Part shown: positions 1 to 59,876 of the stretch, piece after piece
Layout of the letters: each line of letters opens with the position of its first letter
How positions within the stretch are numbered: position 1 is the stretch's first letter
Assembly: GCA_027604705.1 (NCBI GenBank)
Contig: JADHYV010000034.1
Location: 1-64,000 of the forward strand
Direction: 5' to 3'
Length of the DNA stretch: 64,000 nt
Source of the DNA: Allomyces arbusculus
Taxonomy: Eukaryota > Blastocladiomycota > Blastocladiomycetes > Blastocladiales > Blastocladiaceae
The notes under the pieces: generated by a model
Seen by the model: the letters and a program-made list of their open reading frames with translations, nothing else
What the model was told of the DNA's origin: nothing
Database searches by the model: none
Program-made: the position numbers and the translations under genes

Positions 1-316
1 TAAAAACCTAAAAAAACCTAAACCTAAAAACCTAAAACCTAACCTAAACCTAACCTAAAACCTAAAACCTAAACCTAAACCTAAACCTAACCTAAAAACC
101 TAAAACCTAACCTAAAAACCTAAAAAAACCTAAAACCTAAAAAACCTAACCTAAAAACCTAAAAACCTAAAACCTAAAAACCTAAAAAACCTAAAAAACC
201 TAACCTAAACCTAACCTAAAAACCTAACCTAAAACCTAAAAACCTAACTAACCTAAAACCTAAAACCTAAAACCTAAAACTAAAACCTAACATAAACCTA
301 AAAACCTAAAACCTAA
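1..316. repeat. Telomere repeat array, CCT(A)2-7 on the + strand
   Basis: The stretch is almost entirely units of CCT followed by two to seven A, which on the G-rich strand reads (T)2-7AGG running toward the chromosome end. The A-run length changes from unit to unit with no fixed period. The last 70 bases or so contain imperfect units (an isolated CTAACTA, a unit lacking one C, a CATAAA unit), as expected at the old inner edge of an array. The C-rich strand at the left edge fits a left-hand chromosome end. Only two G per unit and a variable T run differ from the usual fungal TTAGGG. Confidence 0.93.
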
Positions 317-1190: not shown

Positions 1191-1825
1191 ATGACCAACC
1201 TCGCCACTCTCTTCGCAACCGCGGCCCTCGCCCTGCTCGCAGTGACCACCACGTCGGCGACCGCGCAAACGTCTTGTGGCAACGGCGCCGACGCCGTCTT
1301 CCAAGGATGTCTCGACGTGACGGCCGCGCGGCAGCGGCAGCTGTGCGACCCGCTCCAGGCCGCGCAGGGGTTCCCCTACTTTTCATGCATGTGCCAGTTG
1401 GCGGGCGAGGTGGTCGGGTGCTACGCGTCATGCCCAGGCCTTGTACGTTAACCTGCATCGAAGTCACGCCGTCGATGCGCTCCGTGACGAACCGACTCTG
1501 CCTCCTTATCTAGGACGGCCAGCGCCAGATCGCTGTCGCCTCGCAAACCTCATACTGCAACGCAGCCGCTGGGCTCAAGCCCGTGACGACGGCATCGACG
1601 GCAGGCGTGTCGTCGACGACGCCGATCACGGGCGTGCCGACTGGTGCGGGGAGTACGACGAGTGCCGGGTCGGCGGGGTCCAAGTCGACGGGCGGGACGG
1701 CCGCGACGGCGCCAACGCCGACGGCCACGGCTGACGCCAGGAACGACGCAGCGCATCTCGGGGAAAAAGTGGCGGTGGCCGCAGCCGCGGTCGCAGCGGC
1801 GGGACTCGGCGCGCTCGCGCTGTGA
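1191..1825 (+). CDS. Cysteine-rich GPI-anchored surface protein
   Basis: Predicted exons 1191-1442 and 1514-1825 (intron GTACGT...CTAG, phase 0), 187 residues. It starts with a signal peptide (about residues 1-26, ending ATAQ), followed by a compact domain with eight cysteines including a CMC pair and a CYASCP motif, a Ser/Thr/Gly/Ala-rich stalk, and a hydrophobic C-terminus ending GLGALAL, typical of a GPI-attachment signal. The Cys order resembles small GPI-anchored serine-rich proteins of fungi (C...C...C...CxC...CYxxCP...YC). Its likely place is the outer membrane or cell wall; the function is unknown. The ATG sits in a good context (ACCGCCATGA). It is the first gene from the telomere, a position often used by variable surface genes, but only one copy is visible here. 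Confidence 0.75.
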
Positions 1826-13168: not shown

Positions 13169-14078
13169 CGTGAAGCGTGTCATGAGCGCTGCGGACACGC
13201 GCAGCAGGAGGCAAGATATCAGTGCATACCGACCCGAGCGTGTGGTGTGAAGCATGGCGTGAGCAGCAGCTGAGCGCAGCGTAAGAACATGGTCGTGCTG
13301 AGAGTGGACATAAGCACCGTCAGGTAGCGTCACATCGCATCAGGGCGCGTCACCACGCATCAGGGAGGGGGTGCCGACGGGCGGAGGAGGCCAACGCCCA
13401 TGTGCGCGGAGTTGCGCGGAGTTGCTGCAAGATGAAATGAATTGCGGCCCGCTGGGAGACGCGTGCGCGAGACAGCGTGATCTGCGCGCATCAACGGACG
13501 CCGCCAACGCGCCGCCAGTGCTCGCGCCGCTGCCCTGGCAGAAGCGCAGAGGCGTGTGCCAAGCTGGTTCGGGCGTGCTGGACAGCAGCAGCACCACCAC
13601 CAGCGGGCCGCAACGGCGGGCGTGGTGACCAGCTGGGAGGGCGGGACGGCGACGACAGCGACGACGGCCTCCGGTCGGACTGCCAGGGATGTGCACCGAC
13701 GCCGTCGGCCCGTCCCCGCCAACGGGCAAGGTTGTGATCTTCTCTAGCGGCCATCAACCAACCTTCACCTTCTCTTGCCACCTGGTTCGGCTCGCCCACA
13801 TTTCCTGGCCGCCTCGGCACTGCTCGGCCCCCATCCGTCCCCCATCCTCCCACTCTCGACTATCAGTACAAAGCACGCGCAGAACGTCCGCGACGCTCGT
13901 TCTCCCCAATCTGCCCACTCTCCCCCACTCGCCGCCACCAACTCCGCGCACGACCTGCGCTGCCCGCCACTCCTGTCACCGGTCGTCTCGCGAGCTGTCG
14001 TCGCCGTTCATATTCGTCGGCTTGCCACCGGCAATCTTTCGCTCTGCACCCGCCGACAACCCCTCGCCATCAGCGACC
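13169..14078. other. Intergenic and desaturase 5' leader
   Basis: Bases 13750-14078 are pyrimidine-rich and open upstream of the desaturase ATG, which looks like a transcribed leader. No gene seen in 13169-13750; long frames on both strands are GC-driven. Confidence 0.5.
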
Positions 14079-15455
14079 ATGGCGCCGCCCGCCGCCGTCA
14101 TGATCACGGACACTGAGGTGCCCGAGCTGCTCGCAGCCCTGCGCCGCCGCACGCGCACCGCCAGCAACTTTGGCAAGGGCCAAGTCGACTCGGGCGTCGA
14201 CAGTGAAGTCATCGTCGACCTCAAGCCGAGCTCAAGCGCGCCCGCCGCGCTCTCGCTCGCCGAGGAGCAGGCACGCGCCGAGGCGCAAGAGGACGCAGCA
14301 TTGCTGGCCGACCCGAACGCCGAAGTAGCGCCCGACACGCCCGCTGCCAAGCACCCCGAGTCGCTGCCCGTGCCCGTTGGGCCGCAACTCGCCTGGCTCG
14401 ACCCGTATCTGATCCCGCTGCTCGTCGACCCGCGCGACACGGTCTTTGTCAAGACGTCCATGTGGCTCTCGATTGGCGTGCTCTCGGCGCTCTACCTCGT
14501 GCTTGTCCAGTTCACGTGGCTGCATTTTGCGCTGCACGCGGCGTGGGTCGCCAAGTACGCGACGACGTTTGTGCTGATGCTGCACTGCGTGTGCCATCGC
14601 CCTCTCTACCGCCGCACGGCGCCCGCACCGCTGCACTGGTGGGTGCCGTACTTCCTTGCGCCGTTCTACGGGCATACGTGGGAGACGTTCTACTGGCACC
14701 ACATCAAGCACCACCACATCGAGGACAATGGGCCGAACGATTTGTCGTGCACGCTGCACTACCAGCGCGACAACTTCTTCCACTTTCTCCACTACTTTTT
14801 CCGGTTCCTGTTCTTCACGCCGATTGAGTTGACGCTCTACTTTGCGCGCAAGGGGTGGTATTCGTCGGCGATCCGGCTCGCGTGCATGGAGACCGGCTCG
14901 TGGGTCCATTACGCGACGCTGACTTACCTTGGCATGACCTACGGGTACAACACGTCGGTCCTGCCTGGTCTGTTGACGCTCGTGCTGCCCGTGGTGCTGA
15001 TGCGGTTCGGCATGATGTCCGGCAACTGGGCCCAGCACTCGTTTGTGGACCCGACGCGCGCCGACTGCGACTACGTGCAGTCGCTGACGTGCATCGACAA
15101 CCACTACAATGCGATTGCGTTCAACGACGGGTACCACACGTCGCACCACTTGCACCCGCGCCGCCACTGGGCTGACCACCCGGCCAACCTCGTGACGCAC
15201 GCACACGAGTACGGCAAGCAAGGCACGATCGTCTTCCGCGGCATCGACTTCCACGAGACGTGGTGGCTGCTCATGACCAAGAACTATGACCGGTTGGCCA
15301 AGTGCTACGTGCACATGGACCTCGACTCGCCGCGGCCCGCGCAGCACGAGATTGTGGCCTTGCTCAAGGACCGCACGCGCCGCATGTCGGACCAAGAGAT
15401 TGCAAAGTACTACTCGCCCGAGGCGCGCGCCGCACGGCTCGCTAAGACCAACTAG
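14079..15455 (+). CDS. Membrane fatty acid desaturase family protein
   Basis: Single exon, 458 residues from the ATG in GCGACCATGG. The FA-desaturase domain covers about residues 105-420. Three histidine boxes bind the di-iron centre: HCVCH (169-173), HHIKHHH (207-213) and HTSHHLHPRRH (353-363), with the accessory NWAQH (316-320). Hydrophobic helices flank them. HHIKHHHIEDNGPNDLSC puts it with an uncharacterised desaturase group found in algae, protists and some fungi rather than the classical delta-9 or delta-12 enzymes; there is no fused cytochrome b5. Substrate and regiospecificity cannot be read from sequence. The first 100 residues are polar and Ala/Glu-rich, probably a cytosolic extension. 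Codon use is strongly G/C-ending, as in the neighbours. Confidence 0.85.
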   Translation: MAPPAAVMITDTEVPELLAALRRRTRTASNFGKGQVDSGVDSEVIVDLKPSSSAPAALSLAEEQARAEAQEDAALLADPNAEVAPDTPAAKHPESLPVPVGPQLAWLDPYLIPLLVDPRDTVFVKTSMWLSIGVLSALYLVLVQFTWLHFALHAAWVAKYATTFVLMLHCVCHRPLYRRTAPAPLHWWVPYFLAPFYGHTWETFYWHHIKHHHIEDNGPNDLSCTLHYQRDNFFHFLHYFFRFLFFTPIELTLYFARKGWYSSAIRLACMETGSWVHYATLTYLGMTYGYNTSVLPGLLTLVLPVVLMRFGMMSGNWAQHSFVDPTRADCDYVQSLTCIDNHYNAIAFNDGYHTSHHLHPRRHWADHPANLVTHAHEYGKQGTIVFRGIDFHETWWLLMTKNYDRLAKCYVHMDLDSPRPAQHEIVALLKDRTRRMSDQEIAKYYSPEARAARLAKTN

Positions 15456-24397: not shown

Positions 24398-26022
24398 ATG
24401 ACCGACCGGTCCGCGACGCTCCAAGACGTCCGCGACCCTGGCTCGTCCGCGCTACCCTTGCTCGGTCGGGACAGCACTGTCGACCCGCTCATCCCGCGAC
24501 CTAGCGCAAGCGGCAGTTCCAGCGATGATCAGCTCGTCGACGTCGAACGCAATCTCGGTGCCGTCGTCGACGGCAAGCCCGACCAACCCGAACGCTCTGC
24601 GCTCAAGGTGCTCGACGACGAGGACAACGTCGGCGCCACCGATAGCAGCGCACCTGCAAGCCGATACGACCGCATTGACGGCGGCCTCTTTGCATGGATG
24701 GCCGTGGCCGCGTCGTTTCTCGTCACGTTTGTCGTCTTTGGCGTACAATTCTCGTTTGGTGTGTTCCAGCGCTACTACCTCGCCGTCGATTACCCAAACG
24801 CGTCACCATCCCAAGTCTCGCTCGTCGGCACGATTGGGCCCGCCGTCCTATACTTCATGGGGCCCGTCGTGGGCCGTGTCGCGGAACGCACTTCCTACCA
24901 GCTCGTTGTCGGCACGGGTGCCGGTTTCGTCGGTGCCGGGCTCCTTCTCGCGTCGTTTTCGAGGCAATTGTGGCAACTGGCATTGACGCAAGGCGTGCTG
25001 TTTGGTTTGGGCACGTCCATGGCGTTCTTCCCGGGCATCAGTGTACCAGCACAGTAAGTTTCATAACCCTCGCGTTGATGCTTGCATTCGACGAAACTAA
25101 CTTGGCATTTCATTCGTGCAATAGATGGTGGGTAAAGCACCGTGCTCATGTCGTTGGCATCTCTTTTTCCGGGTCGGGCGTCGGCGGCATCGTCTACGTG
25201 CAGCTGCTCAGCTCGCTCCTGCCGAAAATTGGGTCTGCGTGGACGTTGCGCGTGTGCGGCTTCTTGTCGCTGTTCTTGCTCGCGCTTGCTGCCGCCATGA
25301 TTCGCACACGCATCCCGTCGTCGCGCCCACCCGTGGATCCCAACACGGGCCGCACGCTGCCGTGGCACCATGGTCTCGTCGAATTCAGGATCCTGCGCAA
25401 CCCCAAGTTCCTCGCACAACTTTGGAATTTCGCACTCTTTCCGTTCACGTTCAACAATCCTTATTTTTACTTGCCGAGCTACGTGTCATCGGTGCTTGGC
25501 GGGTCGCCATCGTGGGCAGCAACACTCCTGACCGTCTCCAATGTGGCGTCGATTGCCGGACGGATCCTGTCGGGCTACTTTGCCGACGCGATCGGGAACG
25601 TGAACATGTACCTGCTCACGATTCTCGTCACGGCCGTCTCCTTCTTTGCGTTCTGGTTGCCCGCGGGCGACTCGGCTGTGCTGCTCTACCTGTTTGCCAT
25701 CGCCTACGGGTTTTGCTCGGGCGGGTTTTTCTCGCTCAACACGACCGTGACCGCGCAACTGCACGGCGTTGCCAAGCTGCCGTCGATCCTGGGCATTCTC
25801 TATTCGTCCATGGTCATTGGCAATCTCGCGGGCACGCCGATCGCAGGCGCGTTGGTCACGGCCGCGCGGAATGCTTTTAAGGAGACGGGCAGTTACCCGA
25901 CAGCGGCGCACGAGTACTTTGGAGCGATTTTGTTTTCGGGGTTGATTGTGCTGCTGGGCACCGTGAGTTTGGTGTATTTGCGTTATGGGCTGTTGGACCG
26001 CCGGTTCACGGCGCGAATTTGA
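24398..26022 (+). CDS. Monocarboxylate-type MFS transporter, copy 1
   Basis: Exons 24398-25053 and 25125-26022 (GTAAGT...ATAG, phase 2), 517 residues. The N-terminal 85 residues are polar. The family signature DGGLFAWMAVAASFLVTFVVFG starts the first of about twelve membrane segments; GVFQRYYL, GPVVGRVAERT, GLGTSMAFFPG and PAQWWVKHRAHVVGISFSGSGVGG follow, all typical of fungal SLC16/monocarboxylate-porter-like permeases. The second half keeps AGRILSGYFADAIGN between helices 8 and 9. Substrates in this family include monocarboxylates and related small acids; the real substrate is unknown. It is the upstream partner of a tandem pair with the gene at 27911: same intron position and phase, equal second-exon length (898 bases). 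Confidence 0.85.
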
Positions 26023-27910: not shown

Positions 27911-29544
27911 ATGACCGACCGCTCCGCGACGCCATTCCAAGACGTCCGCGACCCTGGCTCGTCGGCACTACCCTTGCCTGCTCGGGACAGTACCGTCGAC
28001 CCGTTGGTCCCGCGCCCTGCAAGCACAAGCGGCAGTTCCAGTAATATTCACCTCGTCGACCTCGAACACAACCTCGCGGGTGCCGTTGTCGACGGCAAGC
28101 CACTCGACCAGCTCGAACGCTCAGCGCTCAAGGCAATCGACGACGAAGACAATGCCGACGCTATCGACGGCACCGTACCAAGCCGCTACGACCGCGTCGA
28201 CGGCGGACTCTACGCATGGATGGCCGTCGCCGCATCGTTTCTCGTCACGTTTGTCGTATTTGGCGTACTACTCTCGTTTGGCGTGTTCCAGCGCTACTAC
28301 CTCGCCGTCGATTACCCAAACGCGTCGCCATCTCAAGTCTCGCTCGTCGGCACGATTGGGCCCGCCGTCATGTTCTTCATGGGGCTCGTTGTGGGCCGTG
28401 TCGCGGAGCGCACGTCCTTCCAGCTCGTTGTCGCCACAGGCGCCGGATTTGTTGGTGCCGGGTTCATTCTCGCGTCGTTTGCGACGCAATTGTGGCAATT
28501 GGCATTGACGCAGGGCGTCTTGTTTGGTTTGGGCACGTCCATGGCCTTCTACCCCGGCATCAGTGTACCAGCACAGTACGTGGATTGCGTTTGTCGTGAA
28601 AATGCTCTTCTTCGACGAGCTAACCCGATTTTCCCTCGTGCAATAGATGGTGGGTCAAGCGTCGCGCCCTTGCCGTTGGCATCTCCATTTCTGGGTCTGG
28701 CGTTGGCGGTATCGCCTACGTGCAAATGCTCAGCGCGCTCTTGCCGAAAATCGGGTCGGCGTGGACGCTTCGCGTGTGCGGTTTCCTGTCACTGTTCCTG
28801 CTCGGCCTCGCTGCCGCCATGATTCGCACGCGCGTCCCGTCGTCGCGCGCACCCGTTGACCCCAACACGGGCCGCACGCTCCCGTGGTACCACGGTCTCG
28901 TCGAATTCAGCATTCTGCGCAACCCCAAGTTCCTCGCGCAATTGTGGTGTGTGGCGCTCTTCCCGTTCGCCTTCAACAACCCCTACTTCTATTTGCCAAG
29001 TTACGTCTCGTCGGTGCTCGGCGAATCGCCGTCGTGGGCGGCAACGCTCCTGACCGTGTCGAACGTGGCCTCGATTGCCGGCCGGATCCTGTCGGGCTAC
29101 TTTGCCGACGCCATGGGCAACGTGAACATGTACCTGCTCACAATTCTCATTTCGGCCATCTCCTTTTTTGCCTTTTGGCTGCCCGCGGGCGACTCGGCCG
29201 TGCTGCTCTACCTGTTTGCCATCGTCTATGGGTTCTTTTCGGGTGGCTTCTTCTCACTCAACACGACCGTGACCGCGCAACTGTACGGGGTTGCCAAGCT
29301 GCCGTCGATTCTCGGCATGCTCTATTCGTCCATGGTCATTGGCAATCTGGCCGGCACGCCGATCGCGGGCGCGTTGGTCACGGCCGCGCGGAATGCGTTC
29401 AAGGAGACGGGCAGTTACCCGACAGCGGCGCACGAGTACTTTGGCGCGATTTTGTTTTCGGGGTTAATTATTCTGGTTGGGGCGATGAGTTTGCTGTATT
29501 TGCGATACGGGCTGCTCGACCGCCGATTCACGGCGCGCATTTAA
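27911..29544 (+). CDS. Monocarboxylate-type MFS transporter, copy 2
   Basis: Exons 27911-28575 and 28647-29544 (GTACGT...ATAG, phase 2), 520 residues. It is a close paralogue of the gene at 24398 over its whole length: the same polar N-terminus (MTDRSAT..QDVRDPGSSALPL), the MCT signature DGGLYAWMAVAASFLVTF, PAQWWVKRRALAVGISISGSGVGG across the splice junction, and a nearly identical C-terminus (GSYPTAAHEYFGAILFSG, LDRRFTARI). Changes cluster in the polar N-terminus, the intron and the middle. The donor is GTACGT where copy 1 has GTAAGT. The copy appears intact with its own promoter, so both genes are probably expressed; a split in substrate or timing is possible but not visible. Confidence 0.85.
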
Positions 29545-32126: not shown

Positions 32127-33847
32127 ATGGTACATTGATGCCCCTGCTCAACAGCTCCACGCACGACCAAGACGACGGGCACGACCAGCACGCTGCAATG
32201 TCGGCACGACGAGCGCCATGGAGCGCACCGACGACCTCGGCGGCATCGCCATCAAAACATCCGCTGTGGCCATTGTGACCGAAACGGATGCATGGCCGTG
32301 ACCACCCCCGGCCACTCGCTCTGCGCTCCACGACCCCGTCTTGCATCCGCACCGAAACCATGCCAACTCGTGCTGTTGAGCCGAGGCTGCGCTACTGTGC
32401 CGATTTCGGGCCATGATGCTGAACTCGTGTAATTTTACCGAAGTCGGTGCTTTTTGCCGAGCTCGGGCTGTCTTGCCCAAATCGTGCCAGCGTGCTGAGC
32501 TCGTGCATCGCGCCGCAAGACTGTCGTCGTTGAAGTCGGTGCTTTCGTGTCCGAAATCGTGCTCCCGTGCTGAAATCGTGCTGCATGTTGAAGGCGTGCT
32601 GTCGTGCCCGAAATTGGCTGTCGAAACCTCGTTTTTTTCCTGAACAATTGCACTAACCGTGTCTTTGTGCCCGCTTTGCTTGCTAGTCCCACCGCAAGTT
32701 TGAGCACCCCCGCCACGGCTCGCTCGGTTTCCTGCCGCGCAAGCGCTGCGTGCGCTCGCGTGGTAAGGTCAAGTCGTTCCCCAAGGACGACGCCAAGAAG
32801 CCCGTGCACCTCACGGCCTTCCTCGGCTACAAGGCCGGCATGACGCACATTGTCCGCGACCTGGACCGCCCGGCGTCGAAGATGCACAAGAAGGAGATTG
32901 TCGAGGCCGTCACGATCATCGAGACGCCGCCCATGGTCATTGTTGGTGTTGTCGGCTACGTCGAGACGCCGCGTGGCCTGCGCACGCTCACGACCGTCTG
33001 GGCGGAGCATCTCTCGGAGGAGGTCAAGCGCCGCTTCTACAAGAACTGGTACAAGTCGAAGAAGAAGGCCTTCACGCGCTATGCGCAGAAGTACGCCGAC
33101 GGCGCCAAGGACATCACGCGCGAGCTTGAGCGCATCAAGAAGTACTGCCAGGTCGTGCGCGTGCTCGCCCACACGCAGATCCGCAAGGTCAAGATTGGCC
33201 AGAAGAAGGCGCACCTCATGGAGATCCAGCTCAACGGTGGCTCGATCGCGCAGAAGGTCGAGTGGGCCAAGGAGCACTTCGAGAAGGAGGTCGACATCAA
33301 GTCGGTCTTCGAGCAGGACGAGAACATCGACATCATTGGTGTCACTAAGGGTCACGGTTACGAGGGTGTCACGCACCGCTGGGGCACCAAGAAGCTGCCG
33401 CGCAAGACGCACCGCGGTCTGCGCAAGATCGCTTGTATCGGTGCCTGGCATCCGTCGCGCGTCATGTACTCGGTGCCGCGCGCTGGTCAGAACGGTTTCC
33501 ACCACCGTACCGAGCTCAACAAGAAGATCTACCGCGTCTCGCACGGCGCCGAGGCCGGCTCGGGCTCGACCGACTTCGACATCACGGCCAAGACGATCAA
33601 CCCCATGGGCGGCTTCCCGCACTACGGTATGGTCAACGAGGACTTCCTCATGATCAAGGGCTGCTGCGTCGGCACGCGCAAGCGCGTCGTCACGCTCCGC
33701 AAGTCGATGCTCGTGCACACGTCGCGCGCCTCGCTCGAGAAGATCTCGCTCAAGTTCATCGACACGTCGTCGAAGTTCGGCCACGGCCGCTTCCAGACGT
33801 CCGACGAGAAGAAGGCCTTCCTTGGCACGCTCAAGAAGGACCTGTAA
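32127..33847 (+). CDS. RPL3: 60S ribosomal protein L3 (uL3)
   Basis: The main exon 32687-33847 starts with [20 protein letters not shown] and runs to the stop: 386 codons, which with an initiator Met is 387, the same as yeast L3. Family strings include [53 protein letters not shown] and [21 protein letters not shown]3 sits near the peptidyl-transferase centre. The first codon must come from an upstream exon. The only ATG directly followed by a GT-type donor in the preceding 600 bases is 32127-32129 in GTCGCCATG|GTACAT, giving an ATG-only first exon and a 557-base intron with a CACTAAC branch site. ATG-only exons are common in fungal ribosomal genes. The main exon is certain; the first exon is inferred. 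Confidence 0.9.
32387..32625. repeat. Degenerate tandem repeat in the RPL3 intron, unit 17-20 bases
   Basis: About twelve units of the form CGTGCCGAAATCGTGCT, with variants such as GCTGAACTCGTG, CCGAAGTCGGTGCT and CCGAGCTCGGGCTG. Unit length drifts between 17 and 20 bases. It fills the second half of the predicted first intron of RPL3. Confidence 0.7.
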
Positions 33848-57850: not shown

Positions 57851-58498
57851 TTACTCGACGATTTCGACGCGCGGAGCAATATCAAACTGGACGAGGTACC
57901 GGCCCGCGTACGTTTTATCCCACGGTGTCTTCTTGAGCACAAACAAGTACGCGCCTAGCCCAGGCGCGACGGCCTTCATCTTGAACACCATCGATCCGCC
58001 CGACCCGGCAATCCCTGGCGCAACCTCGCGCGCTGGGCGGTACCCGGACTTGACGACCGTCACATGACTGTTATCGCCAGCATACTCCCACTCATGCACG
58101 GCCCCAATGTGCGCCGGGATTTTGACCTTGAACGTGTCCCCAACTGTGGCGGCAACCACCTTCTGAACCTTGGGCGGCGTGGAGATATCGCAGGGCAGCA
58201 CGGTCAAGTGCACTTCGAGGAACTGTGCGGGCTCCTTGGTGCAAAGCTGCCGGTAGACGAACAGGATCGTCCCGGTCCCGGGCTCCGTGGGCTTGCCCTT
58301 GAACACGGTCTTGCCGCCGGAACCGAGGAGTGGCGTGTCGGTGGGCGTCGCACGGTACTCTGGCGTGCTCATCTTGACGTGCGGGCAGTGCGTCGTGACG
58401 AATTCCCACTCATATCCGGTCGTTTTGTTCGACTCGAGCTCGATCTTGATGTGGTGGCCGACACGTGCGACGATTTCCTTGGTGATGGTGACGACCAT
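57851..58498 (-). CDS. Double chagasin-type (I42) cysteine-protease inhibitor
   Basis: Single exon, 215 residues from MVVTITKEIV; the ATG has a good context and the upstream sequence lacks a start with a signal peptide, so the protein is probably cytosolic. Two similar domains of about 105 residues follow each other. Domain 1 has the chagasin first loop as NKTTGYEWE (24-32, consensus NPTTGY) and the second loop GSGG (59-62) leading into KTVFKGKPTEPGTGTILFVYRQ, but no RPW loop. Domain 2 has HIGAVHEWEY (130-139) where the first loop should be, an intact GSGG (165-168) with SMVFKMKAVAPGLGAYLFVLKK, and a PW loop (KTPWD, 190-194). Chagasins block papain-like cysteine proteases by inserting the three loops in the active site. 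Here each domain keeps a different subset of loops. Confidence 0.82.
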   Translation of the reverse strand: MVVTITKEIVARVGHHIKIELESNKTTGYEWEFVTTHCPHVKMSTPEYRATPTDTPLLGSGGKTVFKGKPTEPGTGTILFVYRQLCTKEPAQFLEVHLTVLPCDISTPPKVQKVVAATVGDTFKVKIPAHIGAVHEWEYAGDNSHVTVVKSGYRPAREVAPGIAGSGGSMVFKMKAVAPGLGAYLFVLKKTPWDKTYAGRYLVQFDIAPRVEIVE

Positions 58499-59876
58499 GG
58501 TGGTGGGTGGGTGGTAAAGGTGGGGTGACCGGGCGGCGGATATCGAGCGTGTTGACACACTTGGTTGCAAGGGGGGCGCAGAAGCGAGAATGCTTGCGAG
58601 AACGAGCAGAAATGTGCGCTGCTGGTCGCATTGGGTGATGGGAGTACGGCTTTTTGTAGTCGGCCTTGATGGGTGGCCTGCTGAGGAAGACGGGAAGTTG
58701 AAGGGTGGAGGGCGATGGCAGAGGCGCACAGAACGAACACAAACATAACTGCCCTATTGGAGCGCTTCCACGGCTGCAATCCTGACCACGGCCCATGATA
58801 GAGAACGGCCCGACTGGCCGGCGAAGTCGTGGCGAAGCAATCAAAGAAAAAACGGCCCAAGGGCCCCTTTCCACGAATAGCGTGCCGGGCGCAGCGAGTA
58901 GCAGCGAGCGGTCAAATGATGCCAGCAGGTGCGAATGGATTAATATTCCAAGGAAAGGCATTGTGGATGATTGTTTCGTCAGAGCCCTGTTGTTGTTGCT
59001 CCCAGGCGCTGCTGGCGTTTTTCTTTGGTGCTGCTTCGAACCGAACCGCACCAATATCAGCGAGGTTGACAAATAAAAACATATTGGAAAGCACGAGGGC
59101 GAGCGCAAGAAAACGTGGCCAAGGATTTGCAGTTGTTGAGCTAGAGGGTGGCCCTAATCCTCAGCAAGACTTGTAAGCATCAATCGATTGAAATTGAAAA
59201 TGAGAAGAATGTGATTTTGAGATTTTGCATGGTGGCACTCTTGTCTGAGCTCTGTTGACTGCGGTCTGTGAACGACAGCGGCAATTACAGATTAACGGGC
59301 GCCTTGATGTGTACGTCTGATGGCACACATCAGTATGGGGCGACGGCCATGCCGCTGATACTTTCCAGCCACCCCCACATTCAGTTCGGCGGTCGCGATT
59401 CATTCCGTAGCTTCAAGAAACCTTCTCCACCCGGTGCGCGCGACAGGAGTGTTGCCCGGCCGCCTTTGCTGAAATGATTGCAAGCGTGTGTGGATCCATT
59501 TGGCGACCGCTCGCCCATTTGAACATGTTTCGAGCCTTCTGGTAACGAACAATTGTTGTACAAAGAACGAGAAGACCTTTCTTCGTTCATATTTGTCCAC
59601 AAGAGTGTTTTCTCCTTCTGCCAGCTACTGTGTACGCCAACCGTCTCTATTTGTTCAAATGGAAGCGTTCATCTAGCGCGGTGGGTCTACACTCAAAGCC
59701 GACATCTCGATAAAAACGACGGTTGATCGCGCGTATTGTTAAATATATTCGAGCACTGAAATTGGAACGCAAGTTTACATGGCAGACGGGTTGCTTTCCG
59801 CCGACGCGGGCCAGTCGTGGAGGACGCGTAGATAAAACATAGACTTTTCGGCGCGGCGCAGTTCCTCGGTCTACCA
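58499..59876. other. Gene-poor 1.4 kb stretch
   Basis: Separates the chagasin and Rrg7-like genes, both minus. Lower GC from about 58920 to 59870 than in coding parts. Only short frames on both strands, none with recognisable protein. A non-coding RNA cannot be excluded by eye. Confidence 0.5.

Follow-up and report, generated by a model that had tools for sequence, protein, structure and literature searches.

The window, that is, the whole stretch of 64,000 nucleotides analyzed here, lies at the left end of contig C34 (245,555 bp) of the assembly (25.9 Mb in 197 contigs) of Allomyces arbusculus, an aquatic fungus belonging to the Blastocladiomycota, and the contig starts at base 1 of the window. 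It opens with a telomeric (T)nAGG array at positions 1 to 319, assigned to the minus strand. On the plus strand this stretch consists of CCTA(n) units and closes with ...CCTAACCTGGGCC, and the minus strand is the G-rich (T)nAGG strand, running 5' to 3' outward to the contig end. The array is followed by subtelomeric sequence (320 to 1190, no strand assigned), after which comes the first gene-like stretch internal to the telomere (1191 to 1825, plus strand). Read by eye, the latter is probably an intron-containing gene for a small secreted protein. Further into the window lie a fatty acid desaturase-family protein (13689 to 15452, plus strand; 47.8 bits), two neighboring transporter-like frames recognized by eye (24694 to 26022 and 27911 to 29544, both on the plus strand), which probably represent a tandem duplication and have nearly identical C-terminal halves, a ribosomal protein L3 frame (32750 to 33844; 100% identity over the whole query to L3 of A. 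arbusculus and 99% identity to that of A. macrogynus and A. javanicus), and a peptidase inhibitor I42 (chagasin-family) protein with two matched stretches (57854 to 58729, minus strand; 97.1 bits).

Forty units of the window array are bounded by CC on both sides, with T runs of 2 (nine units), 3 (six), 4 (eleven), 5 (nine), 6 (three), and 7 (two). The autocorrelations at lags 1 to 7 were all inside the range of shuffles, indicating no fixed order of units, and the preliminary description of a T run that changes from 2 to 7 without a fixed order was thereby confirmed for this array. Its statement that the unit always ends in AGG was nearly right, the exceptions being three odd units, of which one reads TTTATG and the other two have only one G each.

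Arrays of the (T)nAGG type cap 21 contig ends of the assembly. The loose pattern CCTAAN{0,5}CCTAAN{0,5}CCTAA gave 848 matches in the genome, compared to 14 for the reversed pattern, and in a separate count 846 starts of the pattern were located within 700 bp of the 21 ends, a difference of 2 from the genome matches. That the remaining contig ends carry no array follows from these pattern counts alone. For CCTAAAACCTAAAACCTAA, all 49 copies lay near contig ends (19 ends), with the C strand on the plus strand at contig starts and on the minus strand at contig ends, i.e., the G strand pointed outward for every one of the 49 matches. An interstitial or chance array was ruled out by the location at contig ends, the outward G strand, and the comparison with the reversed control. 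A mixture of T lengths, which had been proposed as a check, was present in all 21 ends. Together with a telomerase reverse transcriptase (TERT) gene in the genome, the capping of 21 ends with an outward G strand upheld the initial reading of the array as a telomere; the fungal source assumed there was likewise right.

The TERT gene was located on contig C8 by Pfam profile matches and motif-like stretches. Pieces matching Telomerase_RBD at C8:21372-21893 scored 37.1, 35.4, and 31.7 bits against the Pfam cut-off of 25, and the one stop inside each piece was taken as an intron; 14 control genomes gave no hit. In a second profile search of the C8 frames, two were over the cut-off and a third had no match, while a fourth C8 frame had an RVT_1 match of 22.1 bits, below the cut-off of 29.6. 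Among the stretches presumably corresponding to TERT motifs, we read VDIESAFDSI as motif A, GIPQGG as motif B', and FVDD as motif C. For POT1, which binds the single-stranded G tail, one candidate frame was found on C26; at 28.2 bits (27.5 bits in the second search) it fell just short of the cut-off, which is 29 bits.

The 21 arrays, with 7,046 bases in total, yielded 995 G-terminated pieces. Nine subtelomeric pieces at the C164 and C67 ends were excluded, leaving 986 units, and the two regular-looking units innermost to the C164 and C67 fragments were kept among the regular ones. All 21 ends were used for the unit totals and the test of the T3 dip described below, and 19 ends for the strings of eight units and for the comparison of array thirds. 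Regular (T)nAGG units made up 944 of the 986, with T runs of 1 (1 unit), 2 (210), 3 (141), 4 (211), 5 (229), 6 (99), 7 (45), 8 (6), and 9 (2). The distribution thus has a floor at T2, with 22% of units at T2 and a sole T1 unit, located where the C58 array joins unique sequence; a peak at T4 to T5 (440 of 944 units); and a ceiling, given the steep drop past T7. Between floor and peak, T3 showed a dip compared to the best one-peaked distribution (P = 0.0004 in 10,000 simulations on 21 ends; P = 0.003 on 19 ends). By end, T2 units outnumbered T3 units at 15 of the 21 ends, were fewer at 3, and equal at 3, and T4 units outnumbered T3 units at 15 ends and were fewer at 5. Since TTAGG accounts for 210 of the 944 regular units, a telomere of the fixed TTAGG type was ruled out. 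Ends of a fixed TTAGGG type, which the preliminary description had set against a variable unit, did not appear either: three tandem TTAGGG units had no match in the whole 25.9-Mb assembly, and this, with GGG in 2 of the 986 units, ruled out a TTAGGG-type telomere.

The remaining 42 of the 986 units were odd: 22 had a single G, 2 had GGG, 9 had four to six Ts followed directly by G, 7 had a T run interrupted by A or AA, one was TTTTTTTGG, and one was TTTATG. With so few single-G and GGG units, the number of Gs is nearly constant and it is the T run that varies, in agreement with the original claim that the slippage affects T. In the nine units of the forms TTTTTG, TTTTG, and TTTTTTG, we also noted that the next T run was short (2, 2, 2, 3, 4, 2, 2, 3, and 3).

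Neighboring units were nearly, but not fully, independent of each other (P = 0.013, 21 ends), and T lengths differed slightly between ends (P = 0.03, 19 ends). No 8-unit string of lengths was repeated among 19 ends, compared to a mean of 0.38 in shuffles, and a fixed higher-order arrangement of units was ruled out on this basis and by the lack of autocorrelation in the window. Along the arrays, after removal of eight leading units at the C164 end and three at the C67 end, the regular T lengths were alike in the inner, middle, and outer thirds (P = 0.16, 19 ends), which favors an origin at synthesis. The odd units were unevenly distributed, with 18 among 306 units in the inner third, 5 among 299 in the middle third, and 11 among 292 in the outer third (P = 0.025, 19 ends).

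From the T floor of 2 and ceiling of 7, the template was expected to read 5'-AACCUAAAAAAA, and template-like strings were then searched for. Plain strings with A3 to A7 were counted genome-wide and set against their numbers at the 21 ends, where 12-mers and 15-mers were tallied on the C strand of the first 700 bp of each end. All copies of AACCTA3CCT (133 of 133), AACCTA4CCT (203 of 203), AACCTA5CCT (225 of 225), and CCTA5CCT (227 of 227) were telomeric, a statement that for A3, A4, and A5 rests on equal totals in the genome and in the 21 ends. For the longer runs, 95 of 96 copies of AACCTA6CCT and 96 of 97 copies of CCTA6CCT were telomeric, with the same outside copy at C60:71782-71795, and 53 of 54 copies of AACCTA7, with the outside copy at C23:178368-178379 on the minus strand. 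This C23 copy is part of a longer match, the 15-mer AACCTAAAAAAACCT (C23:178365-178379, minus strand). Among the A3 to A7 strings counted, AACCTAAAAAAACCT on C23 and AACCTAAAAAACCT on C60 were the only two places outside telomeric ends. The reversed controls gave 31 (A3), 7 (A4), 2 (A5), 7 (CCTA5CCT), 0 (A6), 4 (CCTA6CCT), and 7 (A7) matches. Seven genome matches for the reversed A7 12-mer mean that a lone internal 12-mer match says little, whereas the lack of copies of the A3 to A5 strings elsewhere makes chance copies of longer strings unlikely. The template CCUAAAAAACCU suggested earlier was thus found once outside telomeric ends, on C60, although as a candidate telomerase RNA only.

The C23 and C60 sites may each be a telomerase RNA template or a telomeric remnant. 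The best-fitting template candidate is AACCTAAAAAAACCT on C23, with C60 second; for the C23 site to be a telomerase RNA is a tentative proposal, and for the C60 candidate it is unlikely. The C23 15-mer has unrelated flanks, and an ATG follows on its own strand, 303 bases from the start of the 15-mer; a YjeF_N fragment, below the cut-off, lies on the other side of the 15-mer on the opposite strand. At C60:71782-71795 (plus strand), AACCTAAAAAACCT lies within the degenerate units A6CCTA6CCTA5CACCTAA, 3' of which are approximately 1,000 bases of low G+C (0.43 to 0.53 per 100), and the first 900 bases after these units contain only two frames of at least 100 codons, both unassigned and on the other strand. 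The C60 site has the appearance of a remnant or of a non-coding RNA. Rfam searches of both sites gave nothing near the cut-offs (best E value 2.2), and the folding of ten stretches from the two sites was no better than that of shuffles (z from -0.04 to +2.62). Sm-like motifs were present 3' of the C60 site at +204, +693, and +723, with a splice-site-like stretch at the second, and none was found in the 1,500 bases after the C23 site. These motifs, the splice-site-like stretch, and a hairpin seen by eye 5' of the C23 site were not relied on, since neither shuffles nor Rfam supported them.

Taken together, we consider it likely that A. arbusculus has a telomerase-made telomere with the unit T2-7(AGG), in which the T number varies by variable re-annealing on an A run in the template, and the data suggest an Allomyces telomerase without a fixed step length along its template. 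The RNA template would carry 5'-AACCU followed by a run of up to seven As. The enzyme would copy to ...AGGTT, after which the TT, sometimes together with the GG, would re-anneal at varying positions of the A run; each new unit would then consist of two Ts plus zero to five more, followed by AGG, and the CC would be copied almost without slipping. More specifically, there could be one RNA with the template 5'-AACCUAAAAAAACCU-3' at C23, on which ...GGTT re-anneals anywhere along the seven-A track and adds 2 plus 0 to 5 Ts per cycle, with each end acquiring a nearly unique barcode in which its own turnover is recorded, but this version is doubtful. A fully paired A7 template should favor T7, against which stands a T7 share of 45 of 944 units (5%); hence either the register is not set by pairing or a different template is used. 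The nine units with four to six Ts followed by G are not accounted for by the C23 template and might come from reading past the A run of C60.

The preliminary description had proposed that telomerase stutters while copying an A run in its RNA. An A-run template did hold up as a natural source of the T variation; what did not fit was the single peak that one mode of stutter predicts, as the floor at T2, the dip at T3, and the peak at T4 to T5 are better explained by variable re-annealing or by more than one register. Stuttering on a fixed run of four or five As, with no special floor, would be in keeping with the T4 and T5 units together making up 440 of 944, and slippage of an rA:dT hybrid is plausible on general grounds; we nevertheless regard it as unlikely, because T2 matches T4 in number (210 versus 211) across a significant T3 dip (P = 0.0004) and T1 is missing but for one junction unit. 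The A4 and A5 strings also have no non-telomeric copy, a result that would also be obtained if the template contained only one CCU or if the assembly lacked the gene. Were there instead two registers or two telomerase RNAs, one making T2AGG and the other T4-5AGG with slippage, a two-peaked T distribution would be expected, as was seen, and the template-like places on C23 and C60 do differ in their A run. Neither place, however, offers a T2-type template, and the T2 units occur interspersed with units of other lengths, the dependence between neighbors being only weak (P = 0.013); we hold this explanation to be improbable to a similar degree.

Variable re-annealing on the template, the reading we prefer, places the variation at synthesis by telomerase, and two further explanations would place it elsewhere. 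If telomerase made a fixed unit whose T runs were later altered by replication slippage, the slippage-prone nature of T4 to T7 runs, which is generally known, and the uneven distribution of the odd units between thirds (P = 0.025) would be accounted for; the constancy of the regular T lengths along the array (P = 0.16) and a floor at T2 holding 22% of units, which slippage would not yield, make this quite improbable. An assembly or homopolymer error that makes a fixed unit look variable is, judging from the assembly, very unlikely. Contig ends are often poorly covered, as is generally known, but the spread from 2 to 7 goes far beyond a miscount of plus or minus 1, and the GG pair is stable (22 single-G and 2 triple-G units in 986). 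Moreover, within seven of the window's open frames, which total 19,116 bases, there are 112 homopolymers of at least 4, a lenient control given that the frames were picked for being open and most are unverified as genes.

Units with two Gs would be expected to form at most two-layer quadruplexes, and irregular telomeres are known among fungi from Schizosaccharomyces. Like the canonical TTAGGG telomere of fungi and vertebrates, that of Allomyces is a terminal tandem array with an outward G strand, a T-A-G order, and a TERT, but it has two Gs instead of three, 2 to 7 Ts instead of 2, and no triple TTAGGG. With the arthropod-type TTAGG it shares the two-G unit, TTAGG being one of the Allomyces unit forms, whereas its T number is not fixed and its host is a fungus. 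As in Saccharomyces and Schizosaccharomyces, the units vary without order in a way ascribed to the use of the template by telomerase, but the G or TG part varies in these yeasts and G is near-constant in Allomyces, where T varies. TTAGGG and its variants predominate among the fungi studied, and Saccharomyces, whose unit is T(G)2-3(TG)1-6, is irregular in its G/TG part (PMC10100673). Variation in the T number between units is described in the same source for green algae, in which T deletion is the commonest variation, and for Theileria annulata, in which TTTAGGG and TTTTAGGG are both possible (PMC10100673); the T range there is narrow, and Theileria has three Gs, in contrast to the 2-to-7 mixture of Allomyces. 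A long T run before AG is shared with Cestrum elegans, whose unit is given as TTTTTTAGGG (T6AGGG) in the part available of PMC10767889, although this is a plant with a fixed T6 and three Gs.

Excerpts of further sources name telomerase stalling, stuttering, misincorporation, and paralogues of telomerase RNA as origins of heterogeneity (PMC8211666), and ascribe motif changes in Malassezia to template substitutions and alignment slippage (PMC12506658). Another paper appears to describe species with variable telomeres as helpful for finding telomerase RNAs (PMC12133305, excerpt), and the tidk paper, in the portion available, counts a Blastocladiella genome among its uses (PMC11814493). Likewise in part of its text, the TelFinder paper cites a supplementary table for eight fungi that failed for "variable telomeric repeat sequence" (PMC10100673). 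The literature searched contained no description of telomere units of Allomyces or Blastocladiomycota, and the TelFinder table, outside this search, may list a similar case. Within the literature searched, a T-varying telomere appears to be an undescribed type for this early-diverging fungal phylum; the hard floor at T2, the steep fall past T7, and the significant dip at T3 are new here. These three features of the T run would serve as a readout of how telomerase re-anneals on its template, which uniform repeats conceal. Since each unit carries about 2.5 bits, the ends differ from one another and could be tracked individually through telomere loss, re-extension, and recombination. The telomere-end protein of Allomyces must cope with GG pairs lying 3 to 8 bases apart.

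Finally, the sequence next to the arrays was compared between ends. A blastn comparison (E ≤ 1e-5) of the first 5 kb of the window's end with the 5 kb beside the 20 other telomeric arrays gave no match, and the window's end has none of the shared stretches found elsewhere. Such stretches are shared among the telomeric ends of C12, C29 (both), C33, C58, C68, C89, C106, C114, C117, C127, and C164. The shared stretches at these 12 ends measure 38 to 1,457 bp, with 66 to 98% identity, and lie within 5 kb of the telomere, some of them beginning right at the array. Contig C29 (284,793 bp) carries a (T)nAGG array at both ends and may thus be a complete small chromosome.
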